59,842 nucleotides of DNA from a virus (IMGVR_UViG_3300030109_000604:1-59842); one strand, 5' to 3'. Counted from the stretch's first letter, positions 4,333 to 38,943 are shown. The notes: generated from the letters alone by a model not told the origin. Made by a program: numbers and translations.

Positions 4333-4654
4333 CGAAATCAATAATCTCAGAGGACTGCTCCTCAACAACTGGCGCAGGAGCCGCAGCAGGAGCCTCCCCA
4401 CGGCGCGGAGGATATTGAGTGCCACCTCCACCACTCTGTTCCTTGACTTTGTTAATCTTAATTTGAACATATTCAGTTCCATTTTTGGTGCGCTTGACCT
4501 CGCCGTTCATGAACAAAGTGACGTTCTCCCCGGTTGCGTTATAGGCCGCAACCAATGTGTCGATATCTTCCTTGCGGAAGCTGATGTCACCGGACCAAGC
4601 CTTCCACGACTCATGCTTGCCGCCACGGTTGTCGAAAAGATTTCCAATCGCCAT
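4322..4654 (-). CDS. SSB-like protein with acidic tail
   Basis: The 110-residue product has a beta-rich N-terminal domain (about 1-70), a glycine/proline/alanine-rich linker, and a short acidic end (IIDFDDL). That layout is the hallmark of single-strand DNA-binding proteins, whose acidic tip recruits partner proteins. It begins on the stop codon of the DUF1071 annealing-protein gene (TAATG overlap) and precedes the HNH gene. Annealing proteins usually work with a single-strand binder, which supports the call. I do not recognise a standard SSB core motif, so it may be a divergent OB-fold. Confidence 0.55.
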   Translation of the reverse strand: MAIGNLFDNRGGKHESWKAWSGDISFRKEDIDTLVAAYNATGENVTLFMNGEVKRTKNGTEYVQIKINKVKEQSGGGGTQYPPRRGEAPAAAPAPVVEEQSSEIIDFDDL

Positions 4655-5511
4655 TAGTTATTCTCCTTGCTGAGATCAGCTTTTCGCTGACTGATCTGTG
4701 TGATGTGAATGTGCTTCTTCAGTTCTGCACTATGTGAGTTCGCAATTGACTTGAAGAGAACCACGTTCTCCGTCGTGAACTTCTGCAATGCCTCAAGGTC
4801 CAAGGTCTTGAGGATGGCCGGAAAGTGTTTGTTCACGTAGGCCTCCTGATCTGTCAGGGAACAATCCTCAGGGAACACGAACTTGAGCGTGTCAACGTCA
4901 TCGAACCCATGGATGAGGTTGGCATCGCCGTCATAAACATTTTCATATCCATCGGTTTCGCTGACAGTTTCGAGTGTCGCGCCAAGCTCTTCTTCCACAG
5001 CCTTGACCACGGGGTTCTCCTTGGCTTGCTCCACCACCGACTTGGTTTTTGGTTTGGGCGGCGCTGGCTGCTCTGGCTCTGGCTTATCTTGTGGGGTGTA
5101 GTCCTCAAGATCTTCCCCGGCGTAAATGTGAAACCCAAGGCCGTGGTATCCAATGGCCTTGGTCATGCACCGTTGAAGTGCGGTGTTCACTTGAAACGAA
5201 TCGGGATCAACAACTGGCTTGTTGTTGTTGTTGAGGACCGGGAGGATTTCTGTAATGTCCAGACCTTCAACACTGACTGTAACCTTGACGTATGCAAATC
5301 CATGGGAGTCACGGGTGTACGGAACCATGGCTCCGTCGAGATCAAAGAAATGTTTCTCGAATGTGGCGCTTGGAAACTTGTCCTTCAGCGCACCCCATGC
5401 CCAAGCCCACGACAGGTAGTCGAGATTGCCCTTTGTCTGGCGGTGCTTGTCCACCTCCACCTTCACCTCATTTGCGGCCAAGGTTTCCCACGCCGTTTTC
5501 TTATTCGCCAT
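4654..5511 (-). CDS. DUF1071 single-strand annealing recombinase (Sak-type)
   Basis: The 285-residue protein matches DUF1071, a phage family placed with Rad52-like single-strand annealing proteins. Visible hallmarks are YLSWAWAWG (about 32-40), a LPVLNNNN segment (90-97), and RCMTKAIGYHGLG followed by YAGEDL (about 114-135). The C-terminal half is acidic and probably a flexible partner-binding tail. It would anneal single strands left by the nuclease encoded two genes upstream. The ATG at 5511 was chosen because it has GGAG nearby and overlaps the stop of the HTH gene; an upstream ATG would overlap that gene by 40 bases. Confidence 0.8.
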   Translation of the reverse strand: MANKKTAWETLAANEVKVEVDKHRQTKGNLDYLSWAWAWGALKDKFPSATFEKHFFDLDGAMVPYTRDSHGFAYVKVTVSVEGLDITEILPVLNNNNKPVVDPDSFQVNTALQRCMTKAIGYHGLGFHIYAGEDLEDYTPQDKPEPEQPAPPKPKTKSVVEQAKENPVVKAVEEELGATLETVSETDGYENVYDGDANLIHGFDDVDTLKFVFPEDCSLTDQEAYVNKHFPAILKTLDLEALQKFTTENVVLFKSIANSHSAELKKHIHITQISQRKADLSKENN

Positions 5512-5864
5512 CAGTTGCTGCTCCAAAAAGATTTCAATCGTCTCCACCATTTTCTCGTGGAGGGTTCCTCAGTAATAGCGTTCGAGATGTTCAGCCGCTG
5601 CGGGTTTTTCAGTTGGCTCTCAATGAGCGCATCCATAGCCCCCATTGATTCCGTGATGGGTTTCTCAATGGGCACCTCAGCCCTAACCTCAAACGCCTCA
5701 GGATTTTTCTTTCGGTGATCCCGAACAATCTTATAGGCGTGATTTACAGAGATGTTGAAGGACTCTGCCAGCCCTTCAACGATGTATTTTCTGCCCATAG
5801 TTTTCTGAGCTATGAAGTTCTCGACCAGTAGCCGATCCCTCACAATTTTGTCTGCCTTCTTCAC
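5511..5864 (-). CDS. Small helix-turn-helix protein of the recombination module
   Basis: The 117-residue product has a likely HTH at about residues 25-50 (GLAESFNISVNHAYKIVRDH), a proline-rich middle and a basic, tryptophan-rich C-terminus (RKWWRRLKSF). I place the start at a GTG at 5864 because a near-perfect AGGAGGA ribosome site lies just upstream and it overlaps the nuclease stop by four bases. It sits between the nuclease and the annealing protein, so it may regulate this operon or act as a recombination loader. No named family recognised. Confidence 0.6.
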   Translation of the reverse strand: MKKADKIVRDRLLVENFIAQKTMGRKYIVEGLAESFNISVNHAYKIVRDHRKKNPEAFEVRAEVPIEKPITESMGAMDALIESQLKNPQRLNISNAITEEPSTRKWWRRLKSFWSSN

Positions 5865-6748
5865 TTCTCTTCCTCCTGATGTTGAGTGCAGAATGGTGCT
5901 ACCTCGCAGTAGCGTTGGCAGCGCAGCGGTTCCGCTGGCCGATGTTCGACAACCCACTTGGGATTGTCCGTCTTAAATTCCTTGGCCTCATTTTCTGAAT
6001 CAAATACTCGCTTGGCACGGGCGCTTTCGGCAGTGGCCTTGACTGCCCACTTGTCGCCCCTCTTCCAGCGTTCTTCGTCAGTGCAGAGAGGCAACGAGTC
6101 GAGGGCATCAAAGGTAACCTCAGCCCCAAGGTGGGCCTGTACACGGCTCTCAAGCCACGCTAGGCGCTCTTCCTTGGGCCATATGGGTATGTCCACTATA
6201 ACCACGGGAGCATCCGGGTAATCAGCCTGACGATCTGCTTGTGCTGAGGAGTGGTCCCTGAGAATTGCGCAGATGGATAGCCGCGTGACAGGCAAGCCCT
6301 TGTTCTCTTCAACCAGATGAGCGTAAGCGTTCAGTTGCTCAGTCCATGAGGGCAGTGAGAATGAGTTTGGCATGGCAGAGATGGCACGGGTAACTTTGTA
6401 ATCCGTGATCTCAATGCCGAAGTCGGTGATCTCTTGTATGTCAATCGCGCCAGAGATGGTCTGCCCAGAAACTTCTGCGCTGAGACGCTCTTCTTTAATG
6501 ATGGCGTTCGATCCAGCATCCCCGTCCTCTAATATCGTATGCACGGCGGAACCAAAAAGTTTCCAAAAGGAATCCGACACGTCCTCTTCTAAATCCTTCC
6601 AATGCTTCTTGGTCAGCAAGGCAATACGAGGTGGCTTCTGTAAGCCCGTCACGCTCATCCACGCATCGCCTTTAGAGTACCGGCCTTGCGATACCCGCAG
6701 CGCGTCGGCTATAGTGGACGGCAAGTTCTTTTTGTTAGTAATCTTCAT
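5861..6748 (-). CDS. PD-(D/E)XK nuclease, Cas4/RecB-like
   Basis: This 295-residue protein shows the RecB/Cas4 nuclease order: GSAVH (66-70), a GAID strand with D103, ITDYK with D116 and K118, and QLNAYA (138-143). Near the C-terminus C-x3-C-x5-C (in RCQRYCEVAPFC), with an earlier cysteine in LPLCTDE, could hold an iron-sulphur cluster as in Cas4 and AddB, though this is inference. It would resect DNA ends for the annealing protein. The ATG at 6748 has a GGGAGAAG ribosome site; an upstream ATG would run through the leftward promoter. It is the first gene of the long leftward operon. Confidence 0.8.
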   Translation of the reverse strand: MKITNKKNLPSTIADALRVSQGRYSKGDAWMSVTGLQKPPRIALLTKKHWKDLEEDVSDSFWKLFGSAVHTILEDGDAGSNAIIKEERLSAEVSGQTISGAIDIQEITDFGIEITDYKVTRAISAMPNSFSLPSWTEQLNAYAHLVEENKGLPVTRLSICAILRDHSSAQADRQADYPDAPVVIVDIPIWPKEERLAWLESRVQAHLGAEVTFDALDSLPLCTDEERWKRGDKWAVKATAESARAKRVFDSENEAKEFKTDNPKWVVEHRPAEPLRCQRYCEVAPFCTQHQEEEK

Positions 6749-6767
6749 CTCTCTTCTCCCGTAGGCA

Positions 6768-6796
6768 GAAATAGGATGGTCTGTTCGGAATGTCAA
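6768..6796 (-). promoter_or_regulatory. Sigma70-like promoter for the leftward operon
   Basis: On the minus strand a perfect TTGACA (6791-6796) is followed after 17 bases by TATTTC (6768-6773). The -35 box lies inside the first codons of the divergent rusA-like gene. Transcription would start near 6761 and give a leader of only about 13 bases that holds the GGGAGAAG ribosome site of the nuclease gene. The -10 box is weak (3 of 6). Confidence 0.45.
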
Positions 6797-7497: not shown

Positions 7498-9261
7498 ATG
7501 GGACTCAATGAAGAAATTATTTCACGTACACTACCATTCCAATCGAAGCTCAATCAAAATATTAGAATCACCTGTCCATCCTGTAGCCATAAGCGGAAGG
7601 GAAGGAACCAGCGTGAGCCGGTTCTGTCGGTCCTGATCAAGAGTGATCGACTGATATATGATTGCAAGCACTGCGGTATCAACGGGTGCGCCCCCCTCAC
7701 CACCACACCACCACGCCCACGCCTCAGTCGAGAGGCACGTCAGGTTGCTGAGGACGGCAAGCTAGGCAGGGTTAGCAGGGAGTACCTCACAGCAAGCCGG
7801 AAGATCGACACGCAGGTGCTTGAAAAGTTTGGGGTATTCAGCACTCAGAAGTTCTTTCCGAAGCTAGAGAAGTCAGTCGAAGCAATTGGGTTTCCGTATT
7901 TTGAAGACGGGGAAATATATGCCACCAAGTTTCGGGCTGTAACTGACAAGGCGCACACCCAAGATGGCGGCGGCGCATCGACGCTGTTCGGTCAGCACCT
8001 GATCAACGGGGAGACTACGTTGACAGTATGCGAAGGGGAGGTGGATGCACTCTCGCTTTGGTCGGCGTCCATTGCCAGCGTGTCGGTGCCGAATGGTGCG
8101 CCGCAAAAAATATCAGAGAACAAGGTTGACCCCAGCGAGGATAAGAAGTTCAGCTATGTCTGGAATGCTCGTGATCTTTTTGCTCGCATGGACAAGGTGG
8201 TTCTTGCAGTTGATGGGGATCAGTCCGGTGCAGCCTTGGCAGAGGAACTCGCAAGGCGAATCGGTAAGGCCAAATGCTGGCTGGTCGAGTGGCCGAATGA
8301 TTGCAAGGATGCCAATGATGTTCTTGTGAAGCACGGGCCTGAGGTTCTCAGGGATGCTGTGGAGAGCGCCACACCATATCCTTTGTCAGGCCTCAACAGC
8401 GCCGATCATTACGATGACGAGGTGGACAGGCTCTATCGGGAGGGGGTTGTCAAGGGGGAGACCACGGGGTTCCCATCGGTTGATGAGATTTACACGGTCA
8501 AGACGGGCATGGTCACGGTGGTCACGGGCATCCCGTCGAGCGGCAAGTCCAGCTTCCTTGATCATGTCATGGTGAACCTAGCCAAGGCCAAGGATTGGAA
8601 GTTTGCAATCTGCTCGTTTGAGAATGATCCATCCACTCACATTACTCAGTTGATTGAAAAGTATAGCGGCAAGCCGTTCTTCTCTGGCCCCACACCAAGG
8701 CTTGATGAGCGGTTGCTTCAAGAGTCGAAGGCGTTTGTGAAGGATCATTTTTGTTTCATTGACAACAATGATGGGGAGAAGGCCACGCTTGCCAGCGTTT
8801 TGGACCGGGCATCGGGGGCCGTGCAAAGGATGGGGGTGAGGGGGCTGATCATAGATCCCTTTTCTTATCTTGCGCTCCCTGACAAGTCGAAGAGTGAGAC
8901 GCAGCAGATCAGCGATATGCTTACGGACGTGAGGATGTTCGCCAAGCTGCACGATATTCACGTCTGGTTTGTCGCGCACCCTGCCAAGATGCGGAGGGAG
9001 GAGGGGGCCACGCCAATACCCAAGGGGTATGACCTCAGCGGTTCGGCACACTGGTTCAACTTTGCCGACGTTGGATTGACGGTGGCGCGGTTCGCTGACC
9101 AACACCAGAACCGTGAGCGTGTGAAAATTATATGTTGGAAAATGAGGTACCGCTGGCTTGGCTCTCAGGGTGAGCGTGTCCTAGATTTCGACGTACCATC
9201 GGGGTGTTATTATGAAGAGCAAACGGAAGTCCAAGCAATCCAGCATTGGTCCGACACCTGA
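7498..9261 (+). CDS. Primase-helicase, T7 gp4-like
   Basis: The 587-residue protein joins a primase and a helicase. A zinc finger sits at C26/C29 and C56/C59. A TOPRIM primase core follows, with CEGEVDAL near 178 and AVDGDQSG near 237. The DnaB-type helicase has its Walker A GIPSSGKSS near 344 and a later SGSAHWFN motif. It would unwind the fork and lay primers. The length matches T7 gp4 (about 566). As no DNA polymerase gene is visible in the window, it must cooperate with a host polymerase. The ATG at 7498 follows GAGAGAGG at suitable spacing. Confidence 0.92.
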   Translation: MGLNEEIISRTLPFQSKLNQNIRITCPSCSHKRKGRNQREPVLSVLIKSDRLIYDCKHCGINGCAPLTTTPPRPRLSREARQVAEDGKLGRVSREYLTASRKIDTQVLEKFGVFSTQKFFPKLEKSVEAIGFPYFEDGEIYATKFRAVTDKAHTQDGGGASTLFGQHLINGETTLTVCEGEVDALSLWSASIASVSVPNGAPQKISENKVDPSEDKKFSYVWNARDLFARMDKVVLAVDGDQSGAALAEELARRIGKAKCWLVEWPNDCKDANDVLVKHGPEVLRDAVESATPYPLSGLNSADHYDDEVDRLYREGVVKGETTGFPSVDEIYTVKTGMVTVVTGIPSSGKSSFLDHVMVNLAKAKDWKFAICSFENDPSTHITQLIEKYSGKPFFSGPTPRLDERLLQESKAFVKDHFCFIDNNDGEKATLASVLDRASGAVQRMGVRGLIIDPFSYLALPDKSKSETQQISDMLTDVRMFAKLHDIHVWFVAHPAKMRREEGATPIPKGYDLSGSAHWFNFADVGLTVARFADQHQNRERVKIICWKMRYRWLGSQGERVLDFDVPSGCYYEEQTEVQAIQHWSDT

Positions 9262-9785: not shown

Positions 9786-9995
9786 TCACTTCAAATAGCC
9801 GGGCTTATCCACCTCAGCCATCTTCATGCTATCCCACACCTTGCGGGATAGTTTCTTGCAGTTGGTCGGCCAACGCACGGCTTCCCGTGCCCTCACCCAT
9901 TTGTACCCAACGCTGGCCTCGACGGTGCGCTTGCCGCAGCCGCAGCTAGGCCATAGCTCGTCACCGACGTGACCGGTGTAGTATTTAGGCTTCAT
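9786..9995 (-). CDS. Small unknown protein with a Cys-Gly-Cys motif (69 aa)
   Basis: The product is basic and contains CGC early in the protein and a single later Cys, which is too few for a clear zinc finger. It starts with ATG at 9995 after a strong AGGAGG ribosome site and is the last gene of the leftward MoxR operon, 31 bases after the preceding gene. I do not recognise it. Confidence 0.6.
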   Translation of the reverse strand: MKPKYYTGHVGDELWPSCGCGKRTVEASVGYKWVRAREAVRWPTNCKKLSRKVWDSMKMAEVDKPGYLK

Positions 9996-10026: not shown

Positions 10027-10449
10027 TCATTTCGACCCCCAATCTTCTAAACCGTCGCCATAGCCGTCTGGACCGTACTCGCCTAAGTCGCGATCATCAC
10101 GCTGTTGCTCATACTCTTCTTGATATTCGTCCCAATTTCTAGCCAACTGAAACTCAAAACCCGTTCGGCTTTCGAGCCTGTCAATCTCTGCACGCGCCTC
10201 ATCCTCAGTCGGTGCATGGACCTCAACAAATCTTGCCAAATCGTATACCCATAGCGTGTCGGGTAGCGTTTCGGGTAGCGTTTCGGGTAGCGTTTCGGGT
10301 TCCTCATCCAGAGAATTTTCTTCCACAGAAATTATCTCGTATTCCCTGAACATCTCGCGGATTTGTTCTTCGCTATAGGCGTGGATGTAAAGATGCTTCT
10401 TTGCTCCATGGAAAGATTCGTCTTGCGTCCTAACGTAATACCTTTTCAT
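10027..10449 (-). CDS. Acidic unknown protein with TLPE repeats (140 aa)
   Basis: Two similar halves seem to be joined by a spacer of ETLP units. The N-terminal half has a YYVRTQDE strand and an AYSEEQIREMF helix; the C-terminal half has a LWVYDLARFVEVHAPTEDEARAEI segment of the same strand-helix kind, so the protein may be an internal duplication. The tail is very acidic. The spacer is encoded by a 12-base tandem repeat. The start at 10449 overlaps the stop of the preceding gene. Function unknown. Confidence 0.6.
   Translation of the reverse strand: MKRYYVRTQDESFHGAKKHLYIHAYSEEQIREMFREYEIISVEENSLDEEPETLPETLPETLPDTLWVYDLARFVEVHAPTEDEARAEIDRLESRTGFEFQLARNWDEYQEEYEQQRDDRDLGEYGPDGYGDGLEDWGSK
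10261..10296. repeat. Three tandem copies of a 12-base unit
   Basis: Three exact copies of GGGTAGCGTTTC follow each other, with a fourth imperfect partial copy just before 10261. The unit is in frame with the minus-strand gene and encodes the ETLP spacer. Copy number could vary between strains without breaking the frame. Confidence 0.9.
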
Positions 10450-10631
10450 TGGCGTTGTTCCTTGTTCTGGACTGCTCCGTAACAATCGGGCAGTTGGGTT
10501 TGACGAACCGGGTGACCGGTCTTGGATTCATAGAGGTAACACCACGCCAAATACCTCTGGCCCTTGGTGTACAGGTGGGGGTTAGCGGCTACGTGAATAG
10601 CCGCCTCCCGCCAGTTGCTTTCCACGCTCAT
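10446..10631 (-). CDS. Small unknown protein (61 aa)
   Basis: A short soluble protein with an aromatic centre (GQRYLAWCYLYESKTG) and no recognised motif. Four-base overlaps at both ends couple it to the 334-residue gene upstream and the ETLP-repeat gene downstream. Real-gene status rests on this coupling and on the compact operon. Confidence 0.55.
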   Translation of the reverse strand: MSVESNWREAAIHVAANPHLYTKGQRYLAWCYLYESKTGHPVRQTQLPDCYGAVQNKEQRQ

Positions 10632-11632
10632 AACTGTTTCATCATGTTGCGGGCGATGCGGTTTCTCAGTAGGGAGTAGGCACGCTTTGCGCTGGTGCCT
10701 GTACCGTGCATCTTATTGGGGTTCACGTAGTCACCCGTGAAAGCGAGGTATCGTTTCACAGGCTCGAACGAACGGTTGTCATACGAGGTCGTACCGTCAC
10801 GGCCATACGTCTCAAGCGCATGAAAGCACACGATCTTGATCCCGTGATCAGTCGGTTCCCCGTCGATCTCAGTCATCACGTCCTCTGCTGCGAGGACAAG
10901 GTACTGATAGGTTGATCCACCGGTTGCCTTTTCTGAAACCTTTTCGAGAAACGGTGGCCTCAAACCGTGGCCCTCATTAAACGTATCACCTTTCTGAGCC
11001 GATAAATCTTTCCAATTTATCAGCCGATTGCCAAACAGGGGCATAACGTGGGTGAAGAAATTAGAAGTGACTTGGACTTGAACTCTAGATTCGGAGCCGT
11101 ACTTTTCGTGGTCAAAAGCAAACGCCGGGCGGTCCCCCATGGGGAAGCCTGTTTTTGAAAGGCCAGACGAGTCCTCTGAGGTCGGGAAGTCTATTGCTGA
11201 ATCCGAACCGATGCCAGCCATCGTGAAGCTATTAAACTTCACTCGGTCCCGCCACTTGCCCAACGTACAGTTGCGGATCATACGCATGCGCTTTTCCCAG
11301 CGTCCAAGAAACGTGCGGAACACTGGCTCAAGATGCACACCCCGGCGTGTCTGATTGATGGTGGTGTGGAAACGAGATTGGCGGCGATAATGCCTGATCA
11401 TCTGGTGATAACCGGACAAGGCCTTGTCGAATTCCTGCAACTCGAAATCGCCGCTGATCTTTTCGAGGTAGCTGCGTGCGGTGTACGTTCTCAGGTCATC
11501 GTCAGAGTCGAGGATGGAGTCGCCATCTGGCATTGGCGCAAACGGACTTACCTTTCTGGTGGAGTGCTCCTGAATAAACAGGCACAAGGCATCCAGACCA
11601 GCCTTGTTCTTTTGATATTCATTGTAATCCAT
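10628..11632 (-). CDS. Unknown protein of the MoxR operon (334 aa)
   Basis: I do not recognise this protein. It begins with a helical region (about 1-110), followed by an arginine-rich segment (RRQSRFHTTINQTRRG, then RWEKRMRMIRN) that could bind nucleic acid or an acidic partner, and a mixed C-terminal half ending in a basic helix. There are no membrane segments. I set the start at 11632, which leaves a 40-base gap after the VWA gene; a frame opening further upstream would overlap that gene. Its position suggests it works with, or is a client of, the MoxR/VWA machine. Confidence 0.55.
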   Translation of the reverse strand: MDYNEYQKNKAGLDALCLFIQEHSTRKVSPFAPMPDGDSILDSDDDLRTYTARSYLEKISGDFELQEFDKALSGYHQMIRHYRRQSRFHTTINQTRRGVHLEPVFRTFLGRWEKRMRMIRNCTLGKWRDRVKFNSFTMAGIGSDSAIDFPTSEDSSGLSKTGFPMGDRPAFAFDHEKYGSESRVQVQVTSNFFTHVMPLFGNRLINWKDLSAQKGDTFNEGHGLRPPFLEKVSEKATGGSTYQYLVLAAEDVMTEIDGEPTDHGIKIVCFHALETYGRDGTTSYDNRSFEPVKRYLAFTGDYVNPNKMHGTGTSAKRAYSLLRNRIARNMMKQL

Positions 11633-11672: not shown

Positions 11673-12965
11673 TTAGTTGAGGTGAATGGTCTTGCCGAAA
11701 TCGGCGGTGCGAGAGGTGGTCGATACCCAAAGCACCGGATAGTCTGGCTCATCAGGCATCGAACATTCGAGGTCGGTCAGATAGATAAACGAGTCGACCT
11801 CGATTTCGTTCTCATAAACGTAATCGAATGGCGGTCGGAAGTCGGTACCGCCGCCGCCGTACCGGCCAAGGTCTTGCTGATCAATCGAGGCCGGGTCATC
11901 GTACTCGTCAACGTGGGCGATGCGCGTGTCGCAATAGATCACGGTGACCTGTTCGGCGTCCACGTCCTGGCATACTGACTTGGCCTCCGACATCAATGCA
12001 GCATACTCATCTTGAGATACGCTGGCGCTGGTATCGACGGCGATCACGATATGACCGACGCCCTCACGTATGCGGCGCGGCGCAAAGATACCGCGCTGTA
12101 CCCATTTCTTGTCGGCACGCCGCCAATCGTAGCGGTGGTCGGAACCCTTACCCAGAAAACGGGCAAGCTCGTGACGCCAATCAACCTTGGCGTCACGCAG
12201 ATCGTCAACGTATGCGGCAAGGGAACCGGGCAATTTGCCTTGTGCCTTGGCGATCTGCGCAGCGTTTTGAACGTCAGCCATAAGCTCCCGCTCCATCGCC
12301 GCAATCTCTTGGGCATCAAGGGGTTCGCCATCGTCACCTTCAGCGTCGATCACAACGCCGGTTCCGGTATCGTCGGCGAAAGGATCACCGCCGCCACCTT
12401 GCGGGGCATCGTCATCATCACCGCCGCCCGTGTCGCTATCATCACCGCCACCTTGCGGGGTATCATCGTCACCGCCGCCCGGCTGGGGTGATGTGGGTTG
12501 CTCCTGAGCAAGCTCGTCGGCCAGAATCTCAGTTGAATATTCAGACCGGTCACGCTTCAGATCACCGACGGCGCTCCAATCAAGGGCACTGGCGGGTAAC
12601 GACTTGCTATCCTTGCGCAGCAAGTCGTTGATGATCACGTCACCGCAGATATTCCATAACTTGGGGTCACGAGAACCGCGCCGCAGGTGGTGGAAAAATA
12701 TCTTGTGATAAACCTCGTGAGCAAGAACGGCTTGCACCTCGTGATCCGATAGGGTCAGCGCAAAGTCGGGATTGATATAAAGACTCTTGCCGTCGGTTGC
12801 CATGGTCGGCAACGTGTCCGTCCAAACGGTCGGCATTTGGATCAACATTGCAGCCGTGAACGGGTCCGACATTTGCAGTTTGATCTTGGCACGGGTGACG
12901 TGCCGCACCGCCTCAGCAGACGGATCGACAACCCCATCATTTAATTGTGATACAAGTGAACTCAT
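11673..12965 (-). CDS. Zincin plus von Willebrand A protein (DUF2201-like)
   Basis: The 430-residue protein has two domains. The N-terminal one carries a zinc-protease motif HEVYH (83-87) and a downstream WNICGDVIIND segment, as in the putative metallopeptidase part of DUF2201. An acidic, glycine-rich linker (about 165-220) follows. The C-terminal VWA domain (305-430) keeps the metal-binding MIDAS residues: DTSAS at 311-315, the GGGGTD turn near 374, and TD near 398. Such proteins act with MoxR ATPases, which are encoded in the same operon. The ATG at 12965 has GGAGG six bases upstream; a TTG at 12971 is a weaker choice. Confidence 0.8.
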   Translation of the reverse strand: MSSLVSQLNDGVVDPSAEAVRHVTRAKIKLQMSDPFTAAMLIQMPTVWTDTLPTMATDGKSLYINPDFALTLSDHEVQAVLAHEVYHKIFFHHLRRGSRDPKLWNICGDVIINDLLRKDSKSLPASALDWSAVGDLKRDRSEYSTEILADELAQEQPTSPQPGGGDDDTPQGGGDDSDTGGGDDDDAPQGGGGDPFADDTGTGVVIDAEGDDGEPLDAQEIAAMERELMADVQNAAQIAKAQGKLPGSLAAYVDDLRDAKVDWRHELARFLGKGSDHRYDWRRADKKWVQRGIFAPRRIREGVGHIVIAVDTSASVSQDEYAALMSEAKSVCQDVDAEQVTVIYCDTRIAHVDEYDDPASIDQQDLGRYGGGGTDFRPPFDYVYENEIEVDSFIYLTDLECSMPDEPDYPVLWVSTTSRTADFGKTIHLN

Positions 12966-12967
12966 TT

Positions 12968-13876
12968 TCAACCTCCAAAAAAACCAGCAAGGCGGTCGGT
13001 GATTTCCGACGCCTCAGATTGCACAATCTTGACCACCTCAGCATTTGAGGGGTTTTTGAACTCCGCAACATCGTGACGGAGCAATTCGCTGCCCTTGATA
13101 TCATCGACAAGGGCCGCAAGGTCAGGGTCACCGGCAACATTCAGCGCCGGTAAGATGTTCACGAGGTCACCAAGATTGGTGATCATCGTGTCGTAAAGGC
13201 GGCGGTTCGCCTCCGTCTTTTTCTTGCCGCCAGCCTTGCGAACTTCCACAGACTCGTATCCGTCCAAGCATGTGGCGATATGCGAGACCGCCTTGTGCAA
13301 CCGCTCGAACGTGTGACGGGTAGCACTTCGCAACAAGTCGGCGTTGTCGTCGTCGATTTCCGCCCGTATCTGCGCGGCCTTGTCGTCGACAATCTTGGCA
13401 TAGAAGTTAGCGCCGGTCGGCACGTCCCGCGCCCGCCATTTGAATTCATACATGGATTCAAGATCGGCGTAGCGTAGGTAGTCATCCTCCCGAAACATGC
13501 CGTTGAGTTGCTTGCGGCGCTGTTCGATTAGCTGGGGAAGTTTCCCGGCCAAGTCGGAGACGGCGGTATTAAACCGCCGCTTGTGATCATCCATGGTGGT
13601 CATGTACTTATCGAAAAGCTCAACGGGTAACAGGCGATAGGTGCCATCCCATGGGAGGGTCAACCGCTCGTGGTCACCGCGTGCCGCACGTGCCGCACGC
13701 TGCGGCCCATCCACCATGCGCGGATCAAGTAGGTGCTTGTCATACTTGCCAGCGTTGTGCGAAGCGGCATGCTCCGCGTTGATCTTGTCGGTCACGTCCC
13801 GATCCTTGCGCGTGAACCCGGCGCAATTGATCTGCAATGTGATAAGCATCGCGTTTTCTTGAAGAATATTTTCCAT
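12968..13876 (-). CDS. Third component of the MoxR/VWA cassette (302 aa)
   Basis: This protein is mostly helical, with a basic N-terminal segment and long charged helices, consistent with an adaptor or substrate-binding role. I see no catalytic motif; a DUF3150-like relation is possible but I cannot show it. It sits between the MoxR gene (four bases upstream) and the VWA gene (its stop touches that gene's ribosome-site region), exactly where ternary MoxR-partner-VWA operons keep their third gene. The ATG at 13876 follows a GGGAGGG ribosome site. Confidence 0.6.
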   Translation of the reverse strand: MENILQENAMLITLQINCAGFTRKDRDVTDKINAEHAASHNAGKYDKHLLDPRMVDGPQRAARAARGDHERLTLPWDGTYRLLPVELFDKYMTTMDDHKRRFNTAVSDLAGKLPQLIEQRRKQLNGMFREDDYLRYADLESMYEFKWRARDVPTGANFYAKIVDDKAAQIRAEIDDDNADLLRSATRHTFERLHKAVSHIATCLDGYESVEVRKAGGKKKTEANRRLYDTMITNLGDLVNILPALNVAGDPDLAALVDDIKGSELLRHDVAEFKNPSNAEVVKIVQSEASEITDRLAGFFGG

Positions 13877-13880
13877 GTTC

Positions 13881-14930
13881 TCAGCCCTCCCCGATGAGGT
13901 TAGATGTTTCGATCAGGATGTCGGTAAATCCTGTCGTTGATACTTTCTTGCCCGGATCACCAGCGGCCTCGTTCCGACGTAACAGCGCGGAAACAGCAAC
14001 CGAATGATACTCAGGCGGCAAGCGCTTGATATAGGCGGCGCATGCCTTGGCGGTTTTGTTGGTGACGGAGGCAATCAAGCTCCCGATCATGGCGTACCGC
14101 ACGTCGGCTTTCTCAGGTACCGGTGCCGCATCAGGGTTAGCGAACACCTCAGATGGTGCCACAAGGTCACGCCAAATGCGCAGGAACCCGGTGAACTTCG
14201 CTTGCTCACCAACACCGATTGCACCGGCAATCATTGGCATTTCGATTGCCTTAGGCACCTCAGCCTTGATCACGTCGGACACTGCGACCCATGTACGAGG
14301 GCAGGGGAACGGCGTGCCGTCGGCAGCATGGCGGTGTAGCGCATCAGGAAACTGGCTCAGGTACGTGGTGACCTCAGGTGCTACGTCGATCTTGGCAAAG
14401 TGTGCCAGCGTCGGATCAAGCTCCGCCTCAACGGTCACAATGTTGAACCGGGAAACCAAATGCTCAGGTATCGACTTAACCGCCGCCTTGTCCGACTTGC
14501 GGTTGCCGTTGGCAATGATCAGGCAATCCTCAGGGAGACGGTGACCAGCTACACGCCGATCCCATATGACCTGAGCGCTAGCCTTTTGAACGTCGATATC
14601 ACACTGGGGGAATTCCTCAAATATGATCAGCGACTTGGAACCGGCCTTGGCGGCGTCGATCACGTTGCGGCCCCAAACGGGTAGCAATTGATCCATGGCG
14701 TCACCGACTTGGGTGACCCAGCCAGTGACCTCAGCCGGTTGATAGTTTGAAAGGTTGACCACCTCGACATGCCAGCCCTCATCACGGGCGACTTGAACCG
14801 GCGCTTGCGACTTGCCGACGCCAACGGGACCCAAGATCAGGAGCGGGAAACCGTCAACGCGCTCAGACTGAATCGCCATAGCGGCGCGAATGTAGGCGGG
14901 TACGTTTGCAATACTGATAATGTTTTCCAT
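13881..14930 (-). CDS. MoxR-type AAA+ ATPase
   Basis: The 349-residue protein has a Walker A GPVGVGKS (34-41), a Walker B IIFEEF (102-107) and a sensor-1 strand IIANGN, in the MoxR/RavA arrangement. Walker B has Glu-Glu where most relatives have Asp-Glu. MoxR ATPases form hexamers that remodel or insert cofactors into target proteins together with VWA partners. The ATG at 14930 follows GAGGA; an upstream ATG at 14996 has no such site. It heads the leftward operon, so its promoter must lie in the 14931-15797 region. Confidence 0.85.
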   Translation of the reverse strand: MENIISIANVPAYIRAAMAIQSERVDGFPLLILGPVGVGKSQAPVQVARDEGWHVEVVNLSNYQPAEVTGWVTQVGDAMDQLLPVWGRNVIDAAKAGSKSLIIFEEFPQCDIDVQKASAQVIWDRRVAGHRLPEDCLIIANGNRKSDKAAVKSIPEHLVSRFNIVTVEAELDPTLAHFAKIDVAPEVTTYLSQFPDALHRHAADGTPFPCPRTWVAVSDVIKAEVPKAIEMPMIAGAIGVGEQAKFTGFLRIWRDLVAPSEVFANPDAAPVPEKADVRYAMIGSLIASVTNKTAKACAAYIKRLPPEYHSVAVSALLRRNEAAGDPGKKVSTTGFTDILIETSNLIGEG

Positions 14931-32672: not shown

Positions 32673-33986
32673 ATGGCAAGTACATACACAACAAATTTTG
32701 GTATCGAAAAAATTGGGTCTGGCGATCAGTCTGGCTCATGGGGCACCACGACCAACTTTAACTTGGACATCCTAGATCGTGTGGCTTCTTTCAAAGCCGT
32801 TGCGCTAACTGGAACCACACACACCCTAACTGTTAGGGAGGCTTCCCCAGACTCTGGGACAGAAAACCTTCAGGATGGAATGTTCCGCGTCATTAAGTTT
32901 ACGGGGGCGCTTGGTGCAAACAATACTGTGACCGTAGCTCCGAATACGACGACGGCATACTTTATCTTTGTTAACTCGACAACGGACTCTGGCTCTAGTG
33001 GCCCGTACTCTGTGGTTATAAAGCAGGGTTCCGGTGCTGAAATTACCATTCCAAACGGGCACTCATCGGTTGTTTTCTGTGACGGCGCAGGATCTGGCGC
33101 TGCTGTAACGGATGCCTTTGCAAAGCTGTACGTCTCTGATGCGATACAGATTGGATCTGGTGCCGCAGAGGACACAAAGATTGTTTTCGATGGTAACGCC
33201 CAAGACTTCTACGTTGGCCTAGACGATTCAGCCGATGACTTGATTATTGGATCTGGTTCTGCTGTAGGCACCAACCCAGCAATAGCTGTTGATGAAAACC
33301 AACTAGTGACCTTCCCAGCGGCAGCGGTGACCATTGGTGACGGCACAGCGGAAGACACGAAGCTGGTGTATGATGGCAACGCTAAAGATTTCTATGTTGG
33401 CTTAGATGACAGCGCAGATAAGTTAGTAATCGGTGTTGGTTCGACTGTTGGAACAAATCCTATTATAACTCTTGATGATGACTCCGTAGTAATTGGTGAT
33501 GGCGATGCGGTAGACACAAAAGTTGTGTTTGATGGTAACGCTCAGGATTTCTACATAGGGCTAGATGATTCGGCTGATGATCTAGTGTTTGGTCAGGGGT
33601 CAACGGTTGGCACCAATGTTGCCTTTGCGATTGATGAGAACCAAGTTACGCAGTTTAGTCATGCTGCGGTAGGCTCTACGCAGACAGCTTCAATCTCTGG
33701 CAATACCACATTGGACTTTCAAACGTACCAGAACTTTGTTTTGACCTTTACAGGCAACGTAACGCTCGACAACCCAACGACTGAAGCAGTTGGTCAATCT
33801 GGATTTATCTTTGTAATTCAAGATGGGACGGGAAGCAGAACGCTTGCGCTGGGAACTGATTACGAGACAGTAGGAGGTGCGGGCTTGACTATTTCAACAA
33901 CGGCTTCGGCAGTTGATCTCATCCCATATGTTGTTAAAGCGAGCGGGTCTATCCAGTTAGGCACCGCGCAGTTGGCGTTTGCCTAA
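32673..33986 (+). CDS. Tail fibre or collar protein with three-fold repeat (437 aa)
   Basis: The N-terminus (FGIEKIGSGDQSGSWG) is a common tail-fibre anchor motif. The centre carries three copies of a 40-residue unit (AEDTKLVYDGNAKDFYVGLDD-like) starting near residues 160, 221 and 274. The C-terminus is beta-rich. It probably links the tail to the receptor-binding proteins encoded next. It ends where the next gene begins (one-base overlap). Confidence 0.7.
   Translation: MASTYTTNFGIEKIGSGDQSGSWGTTTNFNLDILDRVASFKAVALTGTTHTLTVREASPDSGTENLQDGMFRVIKFTGALGANNTVTVAPNTTTAYFIFVNSTTDSGSSGPYSVVIKQGSGAEITIPNGHSSVVFCDGAGSGAAVTDAFAKLYVSDAIQIGSGAAEDTKIVFDGNAQDFYVGLDDSADDLIIGSGSAVGTNPAIAVDENQLVTFPAAAVTIGDGTAEDTKLVYDGNAKDFYVGLDDSADKLVIGVGSTVGTNPIITLDDDSVVIGDGDAVDTKVVFDGNAQDFYIGLDDSADDLVFGQGSTVGTNVAFAIDENQVTQFSHAAVGSTQTASISGNTTLDFQTYQNFVLTFTGNVTLDNPTTEAVGQSGFIFVIQDGTGSRTLALGTDYETVGGAGLTISTTASAVDLIPYVVKASGSIQLGTAQLAFA
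33150..33625 (+). repeat. Three in-frame repeats in the tail-fibre gene
   Basis: Units start near 33153, 33336 and 33495 and encode GDG-AEDTK-DGNA-DFY-GLDDSAD. Base identity is only partial, so the repeats are old or kept at protein level. Confidence 0.75.
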
Positions 33987-36900
33987 TGCCTATTTGGTCG
34001 CCAGCGCTGTTCTTCGCTTCAACTAGCGACACGGCGTATACCATACAGGACTCTGTGATGCTTGATGGCAGCGCAGATTACTTGACGCTTACGCCAAGTT
34101 TTAATGCTTTAGACAATACCAAGGTTACTTTCTCATGGTGGCAGAAGCGCTCTACTCTTAGCACTGTAAGCTGGTTGTATGACGCTGGAAGCAACAACGA
34201 TCAAATGCAATTCGCAGCAGCGGATGATTTAGAAGTTTCCTTAAATGCCACTACAGATGCTTACTTAAATACAACAGCACTTTTCCGTGACCCGACAGCG
34301 TGGCAAAATTTTGTTGTATCGTTTGACACAGGTAACTCAACTTCTGGAGACAGAATGAGGATCTGGAATAATGGTACGGAAATAACTGCTTTTGATACAG
34401 ATACTATGCCAAGCGCCGGGTACGCTTTGGATTTTCTTGCAAACGGCATTGTTCAAAACCTTGGAAGACGAGGCAACAACTCTCAATTTTGGGGAGGCTA
34501 CCTTGCAGAGTTCATTGGCTTAGACGGCATATCTGTTACTGATGCGTCGAAGTTTGGAGAAACAAATGATGACGGCATATGGATTCCGAAAGATCCATCA
34601 GATACAGACAACATAGCCGATTGGGGTGGTAGCAACTCATTTTGGTTGAAGTTCGCAGATGCAACAAACTTAGGCTTTAACAGCAGGCCCACGGCAGTTA
34701 CGGCTGTTGCGGAGACTTACAAGATAGATAACTCGCTGTGGTTAGATGGTAGCGCGGACTATCTATCAAGAACGCCTTCTTCAACTGGAACACCAAAAAC
34801 ACAGACCTTTTCTTTTTGGACAAAAGCTAACGTCACCTCTGGCGATACCGCAATATTTGGAGCTTGGCCTGACGACAGCAACCACAGCTACATTGACTTT
34901 AATGGTGGAGGGGCGGGAATACTTAGAACTGCTGTTCAGGTTAGTGGGTCAAATAAACTAGATTTACGACCAACACCCGTCTACCTAGACACCACTGCGT
35001 GGAAGCATTGGGTTTTCATTTATGACTTCACCAATGAAGTATCAACAGACCGTTGCCGGGTTTACCGAAACGGTGTTCGCATAAATGCTTTTGGGACCGC
35101 AACATACCCAGCAACAACTGATACTCCGCATTGGGCTACGTCAGGCACACCAGAAACAATCGGGGCTGTAAAGCCTTCAAGCCCGGTGTGGTTCGCAAAT
35201 ATTTATCTAGCAGACTTTATTCGACTTGATGGATACGCAGCAGAGCCTACAGATTTTGGTGGTTGGAACGCTACCGGAGATTGGGTGCCTATTGATCCCA
35301 CATCTTTTGTGACATCTAACAAAGGCACGAATGGGTTTCACTTAGACTTTGCAGACCCAAGTGCGCCGGGAAATGATATAAGCGGCAACAACAATGATTT
35401 TGCTGCTAATGGCACTATTGCTACAACTCAGACAACTACTGATTCACCCACTAACACCTCTGGTGACAATGAAGGCAACTACGCCACGCTTAACCCTCTT
35501 AGTAAAAGTTCAGGTGGTGCAACCACTGCAACAATTAGTGAGGGCAATACAAGATGGCTTCGGCCTAATGACGGTAGCAATAACCAACAATGCTACGCCA
35601 CCTTTGGCGCAGATGAGGGCAAGTTCTATTTCGAGTTTAAGTTGCTTCAAGCCAACAACGGGTTTGATACTGGACTTTTTGCCGAAGGGGAAATAAACGG
35701 CAACGAAGGCGCTGGCTATACGGGTTATGATGTTCAGGGGTATTACCTTGAGAACTATGGAACTGGTGTTGTATGGAAGGTGACCACCGCTGATGGATCA
35801 GGGGGTGGCTCAAGGACGGACACTGGGGACAGTTGCACAGCAAACGATGTGATGAAGATTGCCGTAGATTTTGACGCTGGGAAAATCTGGTTAGGAAATG
35901 TCACTCAAGATACCTATTACAATTCATCTGGGGCAGATGTAGCTTTTAACACAAGCACGCCAACCTTTACGTTCACAGCTAACACGCGACTGTTCCCTTA
36001 TATCTTTGGTCACGCCCAAATAAACGAAGCGAAGTTTCGCTTTAACCCAGCATTGTGGACAGGCTCCGCACCAACTGGGTTTAAGCCTTGGAACACATCG
36101 GAGCTTCCATCACCAACTGTGACTGATCCACGAGCATATTGGTCTAATTCTTTATATTATGGCACTGCTCAAAATCGTTCAGTACGTCAATGTTTTGATA
36201 GTACAGGTACAGCATGGACACCTGATTTTGTATGGATAAAAGGTCGTAGTCATGCTGGTGAGCATGTACTTCTTGATTCTGTTAGAGGCGTTACTAAAGT
36301 TTTAACGCCAGATAGTAACGCCGCTGAATTTACTGATACAAAATCTTTAACGTCATTTGATGAAGGCGGGTTTACTCTGGGCGTTGGTGATGATCGAAAC
36401 GATAGCAATGACGATGGTAAAACCTATGTAGCTTGGTGCATGAAGGCAGGAGGTGCTGCTTCAAGTAATGGCAACGGTAGTATTACAAGCTCAGTAAGCG
36501 CAGCAAATCACGGCGGGTTTTCTATTGCAACGTGGACGGGAAATGGCAGTGCGGGTGCGACTATTGGTCATGGGTTAAGTCGCAAACCCGCAATGGGTAT
36601 CTTTCGGCGTTTATCACTAGCGCAAGACTGGGCGGTTTACCATGAAGGATTAGATGCCTCTGCCCCAGAAGATAAGTATGTCAATTTAAATTTAACTAAT
36701 GACGTGCAAGATGCTACATGGCTCAACGATACTGCGCCAACTACATCTGTATGGACACTTGGCACAAGCGGATATGTCAATACATCCAGCGAAACTTTTG
36801 TGGGGTACTTTTTTGCTAGGACACCAGGATTAATTGGTATCGGGACGTACACTGGTAACAACTCTACTGACGGCCCAATGGTAACCATTGATGACGGCGC

Positions 36901-37183
36901 TTCTGGATTTAGACCGGCTTGGTTAATGATTAAAGAATATAGCGGCAGTAACAATGGTAATTGGTTTATAAGAGACAGCGCCAGAAATCCGTACAACCCG
37001 ACTGATCTTGACCTAATGGCTAATTCGACAGACGCGCAATATACGGATTCAAACTCTGATATAGATTTTACGGCTAACGGTTTTAAGATTAGATCTAATG
37101 CTGGCGGCTATAATGAAAGCGGTGCGAAGAATCTATACATCGCATTTGCAGACCAACCATTTAACTTAGCGCGGGCGAGGTAG
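33986..37183 (+). CDS. Receptor-binding protein with LamG and SPRY-like domains (1065 aa)
   Basis: Two LamG or concanavalin A-like domains are visible from their repeated opening (MLDGSADYLTLTP at about 27 and LWLDGSADYLSRTPS at about 251). A SPRY-like domain with GKFYFEFKL follows at about 535-700. The last third (about 715-1060) is related to the C-terminus of the next protein, sharing HGGFSI, GHGLSR, TPGLIG and NPT-like motifs; I recall this end as DUF7483. Such proteins bind surface sugars. Codon use becomes more AT-rich from about 36120. It is likely trimeric and decides host range. Confidence 0.75.
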   Translation: MPIWSPALFFASTSDTAYTIQDSVMLDGSADYLTLTPSFNALDNTKVTFSWWQKRSTLSTVSWLYDAGSNNDQMQFAAADDLEVSLNATTDAYLNTTALFRDPTAWQNFVVSFDTGNSTSGDRMRIWNNGTEITAFDTDTMPSAGYALDFLANGIVQNLGRRGNNSQFWGGYLAEFIGLDGISVTDASKFGETNDDGIWIPKDPSDTDNIADWGGSNSFWLKFADATNLGFNSRPTAVTAVAETYKIDNSLWLDGSADYLSRTPSSTGTPKTQTFSFWTKANVTSGDTAIFGAWPDDSNHSYIDFNGGGAGILRTAVQVSGSNKLDLRPTPVYLDTTAWKHWVFIYDFTNEVSTDRCRVYRNGVRINAFGTATYPATTDTPHWATSGTPETIGAVKPSSPVWFANIYLADFIRLDGYAAEPTDFGGWNATGDWVPIDPTSFVTSNKGTNGFHLDFADPSAPGNDISGNNNDFAANGTIATTQTTTDSPTNTSGDNEGNYATLNPLSKSSGGATTATISEGNTRWLRPNDGSNNQQCYATFGADEGKFYFEFKLLQANNGFDTGLFAEGEINGNEGAGYTGYDVQGYYLENYGTGVVWKVTTADGSGGGSRTDTGDSCTANDVMKIAVDFDAGKIWLGNVTQDTYYNSSGADVAFNTSTPTFTFTANTRLFPYIFGHAQINEAKFRFNPALWTGSAPTGFKPWNTSELPSPTVTDPRAYWSNSLYYGTAQNRSVRQCFDSTGTAWTPDFVWIKGRSHAGEHVLLDSVRGVTKVLTPDSNAAEFTDTKSLTSFDEGGFTLGVGDDRNDSNDDGKTYVAWCMKAGGAASSNGNGSITSSVSAANHGGFSIATWTGNGSAGATIGHGLSRKPAMGIFRRLSLAQDWAVYHEGLDASAPEDKYVNLNLTNDVQDATWLNDTAPTTSVWTLGTSGYVNTSSETFVGYFFARTPGLIGIGTYTGNNSTDGPMVTIDDGASGFRPAWLMIKEYSGSNNGNWFIRDSARNPYNPTDLDLMANSTDAQYTDSNSDIDFTANGFKIRSNAGGYNESGAKNLYIAFADQPFNLARAR

Positions 37184-37185
37184 TC

Positions 37186-38943
37186 ATGCCGCAGTCATAT
37201 TCCCCGGTCGACTTTCCACAGGATTGGTCCGCAGTAAGTATGTCTGCTTCTAGCCAGTTCACTGACTCCTGCTCGGATGATGCAGATAACGATATTGGGA
37301 ACTACTGTACTTGGAACGCTATTTGTGCCTTTCCTTCAGCGAAAGTCACGTTAGGCGATGGTAATACTAAGGCTACAATAACTCCTGATGGAGCTATTAT
37401 CGGAAATCAGTTTTTTGATGTTACCGATAGTGATGGGTTCTATTGGGAAACAAAGTTTATATCTAATGTAAGTAATGCAGAACACGTTGGCATTGGACAG
37501 CAAACTGTGCCACTAAATAATACAAGTTATCTTAATAATGGCATAGCCACTTATCTTAGTGATGGTGGTGCGGATCATACATCTAGTGATAGATATTCAG
37601 GTGGAACATTCCCCACCTATACTGATGGCGATACAATTAGTGTAGCCGTTAAGGGTGGAGCTATCTGGTTTGCAAAAAATAACACTTGGATTAATGGTGC
37701 ATCGGCAGCAGAGATTGCGGCTGGAACAACTACAAATGCAGTGTTTACTGGCTTGACAGGTATGTGGACTCCTATGGTTCGTGGGCATAGTGGCAGTGCT
37801 ACAGTATCAACAACTAATTGGGGTGCATCTGCTTTTGCGTATACACCGCCAACTGGCCTAAAGCGCCTTATGACAGCAGATAGATCGGCTCCGACTGTAA
37901 CCAAACCAGATGATTTTTTTAATACGCTTTTGTACACCGGGAATGGTGGAACCTTAGCGGTAACTGGCGCGGGATTTCAGCCTGACTTTGTTTGGTTAAA
38001 ATGTCGTTCCGTCGCTACAAACTGGAATGTGGTAGACGTTGTTCGTGGTGCCGATGCTATGTTGAGAATGGCAAGTAGTACCAACACAGAACAAAGTGGT
38101 GCGAACCAAGAATTTGAGAGCTTTGACTCTGACGGGTTCACGGTAATTCATCACGGCGGTGTTGTTGAAGAACTAAATAGGAGCGGTGCAACTTACGTGG
38201 GGTATTGCATGAAGGCTGGTGGGTCTCCTTCTAGCAATGTTCAGGGGAATGTCACGAGTTCAGTTAGCGCAGCGAGTCACGGCGGGTTCAGTATTGGAAC
38301 ATTCACTACTGGCACCACTGGCGCGATCACGATTGGTCATGGCCTCAGCCGTGCGCCCGGAATGATCATTGTCAAAGACAGAGTATCGACAGGTCAGTAT
38401 TGGACCTTTCTTGAATCACAAGGTGCCGGAAAATATTTAACTCTTAATACTACTGACGCGCCCGCATCTAGTACGGCAGTGTGGAATAATACGGCCCCGA
38501 CAGCCACTGTGTTTTCTACGCAAGATAATGGTGCATGGTTAACGGCTAACAATAGTCATGTGTTCTATGCTTTTGCTAAGACGCCGGGTCTAATTGGCAT
38601 GGGAACCTACACGGGTAATGGCTCTGCCGACGGAGCATTTATACAAGTTGATGATGGCGCATCTGGCTTTAAGCCAGCTTGGGTAATGGTCAAAAGACTA
38701 GAAGCTGGCTATGCGTGGCATATTCAAGACGCAGTTAGATCTCCATATAACCCAACGGCACTGGGTCTTAATGCCAATGACACTGGAACCGACAGCGCCT
38801 CAACAGCGTATGATTTTATTGCTAATGGATTTAAGTTAAGAACCACGGATGGTGGATATAATGGCTCTGCGTCATATATGTATTTAGCGTTTGCAGAAGA
38901 TCCATTTGGTGGTGACGGTGTAGCGCAAGCAAGAGCTAGGTGA
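37186..38943 (+). CDS. Second receptor-binding protein, paralogue (585 aa)
   Basis: The first 225 residues form a SPRY-like domain (SDGFYWETKFIS) and the rest repeats the C-terminal module of the preceding protein: FQPDFVWLKCR, SHGGFSIGTF, GHGLSRAPGM, KTPGLIGMGTYTGN and a closing AQARAR. The two LamG domains are missing. It starts two bases after the preceding stop, so a duplication in tandem is likely. Two receptor binders could serve two host receptors. Confidence 0.75.
   Translation: MPQSYSPVDFPQDWSAVSMSASSQFTDSCSDDADNDIGNYCTWNAICAFPSAKVTLGDGNTKATITPDGAIIGNQFFDVTDSDGFYWETKFISNVSNAEHVGIGQQTVPLNNTSYLNNGIATYLSDGGADHTSSDRYSGGTFPTYTDGDTISVAVKGGAIWFAKNNTWINGASAAEIAAGTTTNAVFTGLTGMWTPMVRGHSGSATVSTTNWGASAFAYTPPTGLKRLMTADRSAPTVTKPDDFFNTLLYTGNGGTLAVTGAGFQPDFVWLKCRSVATNWNVVDVVRGADAMLRMASSTNTEQSGANQEFESFDSDGFTVIHHGGVVEELNRSGATYVGYCMKAGGSPSSNVQGNVTSSVSAASHGGFSIGTFTTGTTGAITIGHGLSRAPGMIIVKDRVSTGQYWTFLESQGAGKYLTLNTTDAPASSTAVWNNTAPTATVFSTQDNGAWLTANNSHVFYAFAKTPGLIGMGTYTGNGSADGAFIQVDDGASGFKPAWVMVKRLEAGYAWHIQDAVRSPYNPTALGLNANDTGTDSASTAYDFIANGFKLRTTDGGYNGSASYMYLAFAEDPFGGDGVAQARAR

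Follow-up and report, generated by a model that had tools for sequence, protein, structure and literature searches.

NorQD, CbbQO and RavA-ViaA combine a motor ATPase with a MIDAS-bearing VWA adaptor and act on known bacterial targets. In NorQD, a single VWA protein binds to the AAA+ hexamer and inserts a finger of its VWA domain into the pore; its MIDAS holds an acidic residue of the target, and the partner is twisted by ATP hydrolysis. CbbQO likewise grips its target through the MIDAS (PMC13036017, PMC9976466, PMC4660213). Phages also carry ATPase/VWA gene pairs: that of N4, named 'putative ATPase' and 'vWFA superfamily' in 2009 (PMC2784036), consists of the middle genes gp24 and gp25 (PMC4193335), and for a jumbo-phage pair of MoxR and a metallopeptidase-vWA protein, reported in 2021, a role in virion assembly and processing was suggested (PMC7824862). 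A three-gene layout of MoxR, vWA and a third protein characterizes the ternary vWA-MoxR-VMAP/iSTAND conflict systems (PMC7159879).

The phage locus analyzed here is functionally comparable to NorQD, CbbQO and RavA-ViaA in its motor ATPase and MIDAS-bearing VWA protein, but it has a peptidase domain and a separate third subunit that those systems lack. Its AAA+ ATPase and DUF2201_N-DUF2201 protein are homologous to N4 gp24 and gp25, which occur in the same order and with intact HExxH and MIDAS; the N4 and jumbo-phage pairs, however, consist of two genes, whereas here a DUF3150-like third subunit, protein X, is encoded between them. A like logic is seen in IncC-type AAA/DUF3150/HExxH-VWA cassettes, several of which share the gene order and in which an HExxH-type N-terminus precedes the VWA domain. 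In the IncC cassette, the AAA protein is CbbQ/NorQ-like (AAA_5 and CbbQ_C) and the VWA protein is of CobT/VWA rather than DUF2201 type; moreover, several IncC-type cassettes adjoin ssb-Bet/RecT-exonuclease genes, and X of the present locus falls below Pfam DUF3150 detection. The layout of the ternary conflict systems is also matched, but searches of Pfam, PADLOC and NCBIfam turned up neither a VMAP or iSTAND domain nor an effector domain, and the carriers are phages and plasmids. Put forward by the original prediction as its best candidate for an undescribed system, the locus is new in its ternary form and its spread; the two-gene version of ATPase and zincin-VWA protein is already published (PMC2784036, PMC7824862), and X falls within the DUF3150 fold family.

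Organization of the locus

The window, that is, the whole stretch of DNA under analysis (59,842 bases), is an entire IMG/VR virus record. Its minus strand encodes, in leftward order, the AAA+ ATPase, X and the zincin-VWA protein (Table 1). All three open reading frames were verified, in agreement with the original prediction, which had placed three consecutive genes in a leftward operon of their own together with four further ones; the latter encode the downstream proteins of 334, 61, 140 and 69 residues. With intergenic gaps of 4 nt (ATPase/X) and 2 nt (X/zincin-VWA), the trio seems to be a coupled operon, within which promoter and terminator counts are at chance level. The 334- and 61-residue genes lie downstream of the trio in the nearest relatives only, and since the 334-residue protein has no similarity to the genes that follow the VWA gene in phages MinM2 and CRP-7, it is considered a clade-specific neighbor.

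A short PETL motif is repeated in the 140-residue gene (window 10205-10310). Elsewhere in the window, PHROG 19943 and 24898 are both matched by two adjacent proteins (33986-37183 and 37186-38943), which suggests a tandem duplication of a virion or tail-fiber protein, and an open frame of 2782 residues (49273-57621) has a C-terminal part that matches PHROGs of unknown function.

Table 1. Positions in the window of the trio, two motifs of the zincin-VWA protein and neighboring genes.
Feature	Positions	Strand	Basis
AAA+ ATPase (MoxR-like, PHROG 1297), 349 aa	13881..14930	-	ORF, PHROGs, motifs
Protein X, 302 aa, distant DUF3150 relative, between ATPase and VWA genes	12968..13876	-	
Zincin (DUF2201_N) and VWA (DUF2201) protein, 430 aa from ATG, PHROG 1314	11673..12965	-	
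HEVYH zincin motif (H83, E84, H87; H92 and N105/D109 further on, conserved)	12705..12719	-	
MIDAS DTSAS (D311, S313, S315; T374 and D398 further on)	12021..12035	-	
334-aa protein, no assigned family, same operon, kept only in nearest phages (L005, L008, L201)	10628..11632	-	
61-aa protein, no assigned family, overlaps 334-aa gene, kept in L008 and L201	10446..10631	-	
140-aa protein, no assigned family, PETL repeats	10027..10449	-	
69-aa protein, no assigned family, operon end	9786..9995	-	
Primase/helicase facing the operon, position kept in relatives	7498..9261	+	
PD-(D/E)XK exonuclease (PHROG 2139), conserved neighbor	5861..6796	-	
Sak single-strand annealing protein, conserved neighbor	4654..5550	-	

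A MoxR-like ATPase and a VWA protein with a zincin domain

The ATPase has a Walker A motif (GPVGVGKS, 14831-14808, minus strand), a Walker B motif (LIIFEEF, 14630-14610, minus strand), a sensor-1 Asn and an arginine finger. It matches phage ATPase family PHROG 1297 and has a VWA partner gene nearby, as expected of the MoxR family. Its earlier designation as MoxR needs a caveat, since AAA_3, the MoxR model of Pfam, is unmatched and AAA_5 scores 18.1 bits, under its cut-off of 22, which is exceeded by the MinM2 homolog. By Pfam models the protein of the window should hence be called 'MoxR-like' only. Among the collected ATPases, Walker A and the sensor-1 Asn are kept and the arginine finger is found in 59 of 60, with a variable Walker B that reads EE in the clade of the window and DD in Burkholderiales.

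In the zincin-VWA protein, Pfam detects both DUF2201_N, a putative metallopeptidase (8e-44, 150.7 bits; cut-off 23.2), and the VWA-like DUF2201 (2.9e-22, 79.5 bits; cut-off 26.4), and the HEVYH motif and VWA MIDAS, previously described as intact, were both located. The VWA domain extends to the C-terminus (residues 308-431 out of 432 in the Pfam comparison), with no effector domain behind it; directly ahead of it comes a conserved segment, YxWxRPNRR...LP. Zincin and VWA domains are joined by a low-complexity linker rich in Gly and Asp (window 12340-12520), for which model confidence is very low (residues 159-192). The label 'HNH endonuclease', attached to PHROG 1314 and in RefSeq to N4 gp25 and many phage records, was rejected, as Pfam finds zincin and VWA domains only; for the family as a whole, this name looks like a propagated misannotation.

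The sequences of alignment A1 diverged too far for pattern scanning, so residues were scanned on narrower alignments. HExxH, NxxxD and DxSxS/T/D are intact in 17/17 phage homologs examined, with or without X and down to ~25% identity, so that these motifs are not due to chance; the alternative raised by the original prediction, active residues that vary among relatives, is contradicted by this conservation. The MIDAS Asp and Ser are present in all collected VWA copies that cover them, and Thr is replaced by Ser in two. HExxH, by comparison, has been lost from plasmid or chromosomal copies in at least five lineages, including Variovorax (L015), Paraburkholderia L030, L031 and L040 (LKVMQ), L026 (HD), L051 (QL) and L070. 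In L030, L031, L040 and L070 the NxxxD pair has disappeared together with it, which suggests that NxxxD belongs to the same active site. The near-universal MIDAS and the repeated loss of HExxH outside phages point to gripping and remodeling as the invariant core; proteolysis, as judged from motifs, would be an added function that is kept in all phage copies examined.

Protein X as a distant relative of DUF3150 proteins

No convincing match to X was found in Pfam, PHROG, NCBIfam or PADLOC. The Pfam DUF3150 model (PF11348), which gives 306.9 bits on an IncC control, matches neither X nor the records of five X relatives, and hhalign with single sequences detects no significant similarity between X and DUF3150. 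A 56-sequence profile of X, however, aligns with five DUF3150 sequences with a score of 47.5 and 82% probability, collinearly over 226 columns, whereas reversed, column-shuffled and unrelated profiles do not exceed 25.6. In addition, the AlphaFold2 model of X (pLDDT 89.9, pTM 0.81) has as its best viral Foldseek match a phage 'DUF3150 domain-containing protein' (E 1.8e-19, TM 0.80/0.83, 18% identity).

Other structural comparisons gave no match in the PDB at E <= 0.001, a best VIA-align Z of 7.5 to helical bundles such as the vinculin head, which is within the range stated as uninformative, and in BFVD a weak match of mycobacteriophage Dylan (cluster O; rank 9, TM 0.30). By profile and predicted fold, X is a distant relative of DUF3150, a kinship seen only with family profiles and fold, since Pfam and single-sequence comparisons gave no match. 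The view of X as an orphan protein was set aside in light of this kinship and of its steady ATPase and VWA partners. DUF3150 is found on more than a thousand plasmid records; a search of open papers for it returned no matches.

The trio in phages

Relatives of the VWA protein occur in 470 phage records, including N4 gp25, Bacillus phage G gp576 and Roseobacter phage CRP-7. In N4, the ATPase gene gp24 is directly upstream of gp25; cyanophage MinM2 encodes the ATPase, an X homolog annotated as DUF3150 and the zincin-VWA protein in the same order as the window, with small genes between them. X is present in all ten related IMG/VR contigs with a VWA gene (G001-G010), and relatives repeatedly show the arrangement TerL, TerS, ATPase, X, VWA, primase/helicase, exonuclease, Sak as far as the contigs reach. 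X is present in the window, L008 and L201-L208 (the contig edge being reached before the ATPase in L203 and L204) and absent from L209-L211, where the ATPase-VWA pair stays. As X is missing from many similar phage pairs (N4, CRP-7, L209-L211), it is not required in every case.

Well-supported branches of the AAA tree require X to have been gained or lost three times or more, a count based on this tree only, as the length filter removed most X-less rows from the VWA tree. In the same tree the clade of the window groups, across a long branch, with X-less phages, so that partners may have been exchanged. In Tunturiibacter phage Tunturi_3, an X-like protein (L012:4875-5834; profile E 8e-21) is encoded ~2 kb from a larger AAA ATPase of 531 residues and no zincin-VWA gene was detected at the locus; after this example, X-like proteins may also work with other partners.

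The trio in bacteria and on plasmids

A tblastn search with X matched 34 plasmids and only four phage records; among the matches whose neighborhood was read, a VWA-like gene adjoins X. Searching genome contigs with X only yielded 51 loci from Burkholderia, Paraburkholderia, Caballeronia, Variovorax, Dechloromonas, Rhodocyclus, Bryobacterales, an alphaproteobacterium, an actinobacterial MAG and others. In 49 of these, the ATPase lies upstream and the zincin-VWA gene downstream of X (in L049, the ATPase is ~5 kb off); the two exceptions are an X at a contig end (L025) and a truncated X (L072). The original prediction that the three genes form one cassette is thereby supported, and the outcome that it had named as adverse, X never occurring with MoxR/VWA, is the opposite of this nearly constant association. 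The three proteins evolve together: in a comparison of 23 loci, their pairwise distances correlate at 0.89-0.95, a level to which shared ancestry contributes and which 0/999 permutations reach.

A type IV secretion ATPase gene then follows the trio in 37/55 loci compared, many of them from Burkholderiales, and on Burkholderia cenocepacia plasmid pBcn842-1 (L014:1-10200) the trio is flanked by PRTRC-system genes on one side and type IV secretion genes on the other. Synechocystis plasmid pSYSA has an ATPase-VWA pair without X. On IncC, E. coli, Citrobacter and Pseudomonas plasmids, a DUF3150 gene is accompanied by those for an AAA ATPase and for a VWA protein bearing HExxH near its N-terminus; three of these groups, two of them also with ssb, adjoin Bet/RecT and lambda-type exonuclease genes, and a Vibrio plasmid combines ATPase, DUF3150 and exonuclease genes, the VWA gene being further off. 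The IncC VWA protein matches CobT, and hhalign of DUF2201-type against CobT-type VWA proteins finds no more than a weak local match in the zincin part. The DUF2201-type trio of the window and the CobT-type plasmid trio resemble two branches of a single design. The trio is a mobile-element module common to several phage groups and conjugative plasmids, not a one-off.

Discussion

The reading that we favor, with moderate confidence, is a remodeler of MoxR/VWA type with a built-in protease and X as third subunit, whose target is probably a complex of the host or element and not primarily the virion. By analogy with its family, the ATPase would form a ring motor on which the VWA protein docks, gripping an acidic residue of the target through its MIDAS, and ATP hydrolysis would twist or pull the target as in NorQD and CbbQO. 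In NorD, the N-terminal domain is thought to confer specificity or to serve as a stator; X, most likely a stator or target-recognition subunit, may supply in trans what the large N-terminal domains of NorD and CbbO do. The zincin domain of phage copies would then clip the remodeled target, which is probably met during replication or establishment of the incoming element. An invariant MIDAS combined with a dispensable zincin domain fits the logic of NorQD and CbbQO, with clipping as an addition.

A role in virion assembly, with the ATPase/VWA pair as a head or tail chaperone and the zincin domain processing a structural or ejection protein, was proposed for the jumbo-phage pair by Iyer et al. 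2021, by analogy with Acidianus two-tailed virus (PMC7824862). Such a role would agree with the conservation of the cassette in the TerL lineage, where X is present in 8/8 TerL-found contigs holding the VWA gene, and with a zincin motif that is intact in all phage copies examined; we nevertheless regard it as unlikely. Plasmids, conjugative ones among others, form no virion and yet carry the same trio, which argues against virion assembly as the general role, N4 gp24 and gp25 are middle, not late, genes (PMC4193335), the operon runs opposite to the late genes and adjoins replication genes, and DSL-LC04 and 023Pt_psg01, TerL relatives with partly similar terminases, have no VWA match. The plasmid trios and the N4 middle genes are the reasons why we would sooner place the target in the DNA metabolism of host or element, or in establishment, than in the virion.

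The original prediction also linked the locus to ternary conflict systems, and a counter-defense device or a weapon between phages, one taking apart or cleaving an immunity complex of the host, would suit a cassette that is common to phages and plasmids, both of which face host defenses, and whose X-bearing and X-less versions alternate inside one phage lineage. That link is not supported: searches of Pfam, PADLOC and NCBIfam gave no convincing match for X, neither a VMAP/iSTAND partner, an effector domain nor a convincing match in the PADLOC defense library was found (compare PMC7159879), and the cassette occupies a conserved position with replication genes in phages and in plasmid backbones, not defense islands or variable accessory islands. 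A conflict function thus appears less probable still than a virion role. Least probable of all is a NorQD/CobST-like chaperone that inserts a cofactor or metal into an enzyme encoded by the phage or element: although the closest characterized ATPase/VWA relatives include a metal inserter (PMC13036017) and the IncC VWA protein matches CobT, no metalloenzyme gene is linked to the trio across neighborhoods that differ between phages and plasmids, and NorD is not known to work with a metallopeptidase domain.

Extending the preferred reading of a remodeler with a built-in protease, trios with X or DUF3150 might constitute one general machine of mobile elements, which would remodel a host DNA-associated or immunity complex, and in phages cleave it, for establishment of the DNA; this broader proposal is tentative and, in its full form, doubtful.

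In summary, the occurrence of the three-gene form in phages as well as on Burkholderiales and IncC-type plasmids shifts the range of plausible functions, as a virion role cannot explain the plasmid copies. The two-gene version, N4 gp24/gp25, has been annotated for years without an assigned function, and the separation observed between gripping and cutting, the former (MIDAS) near-invariant and the latter (HExxH) kept in the examined phages but repeatedly lost elsewhere, offers an experimental handle on this family.
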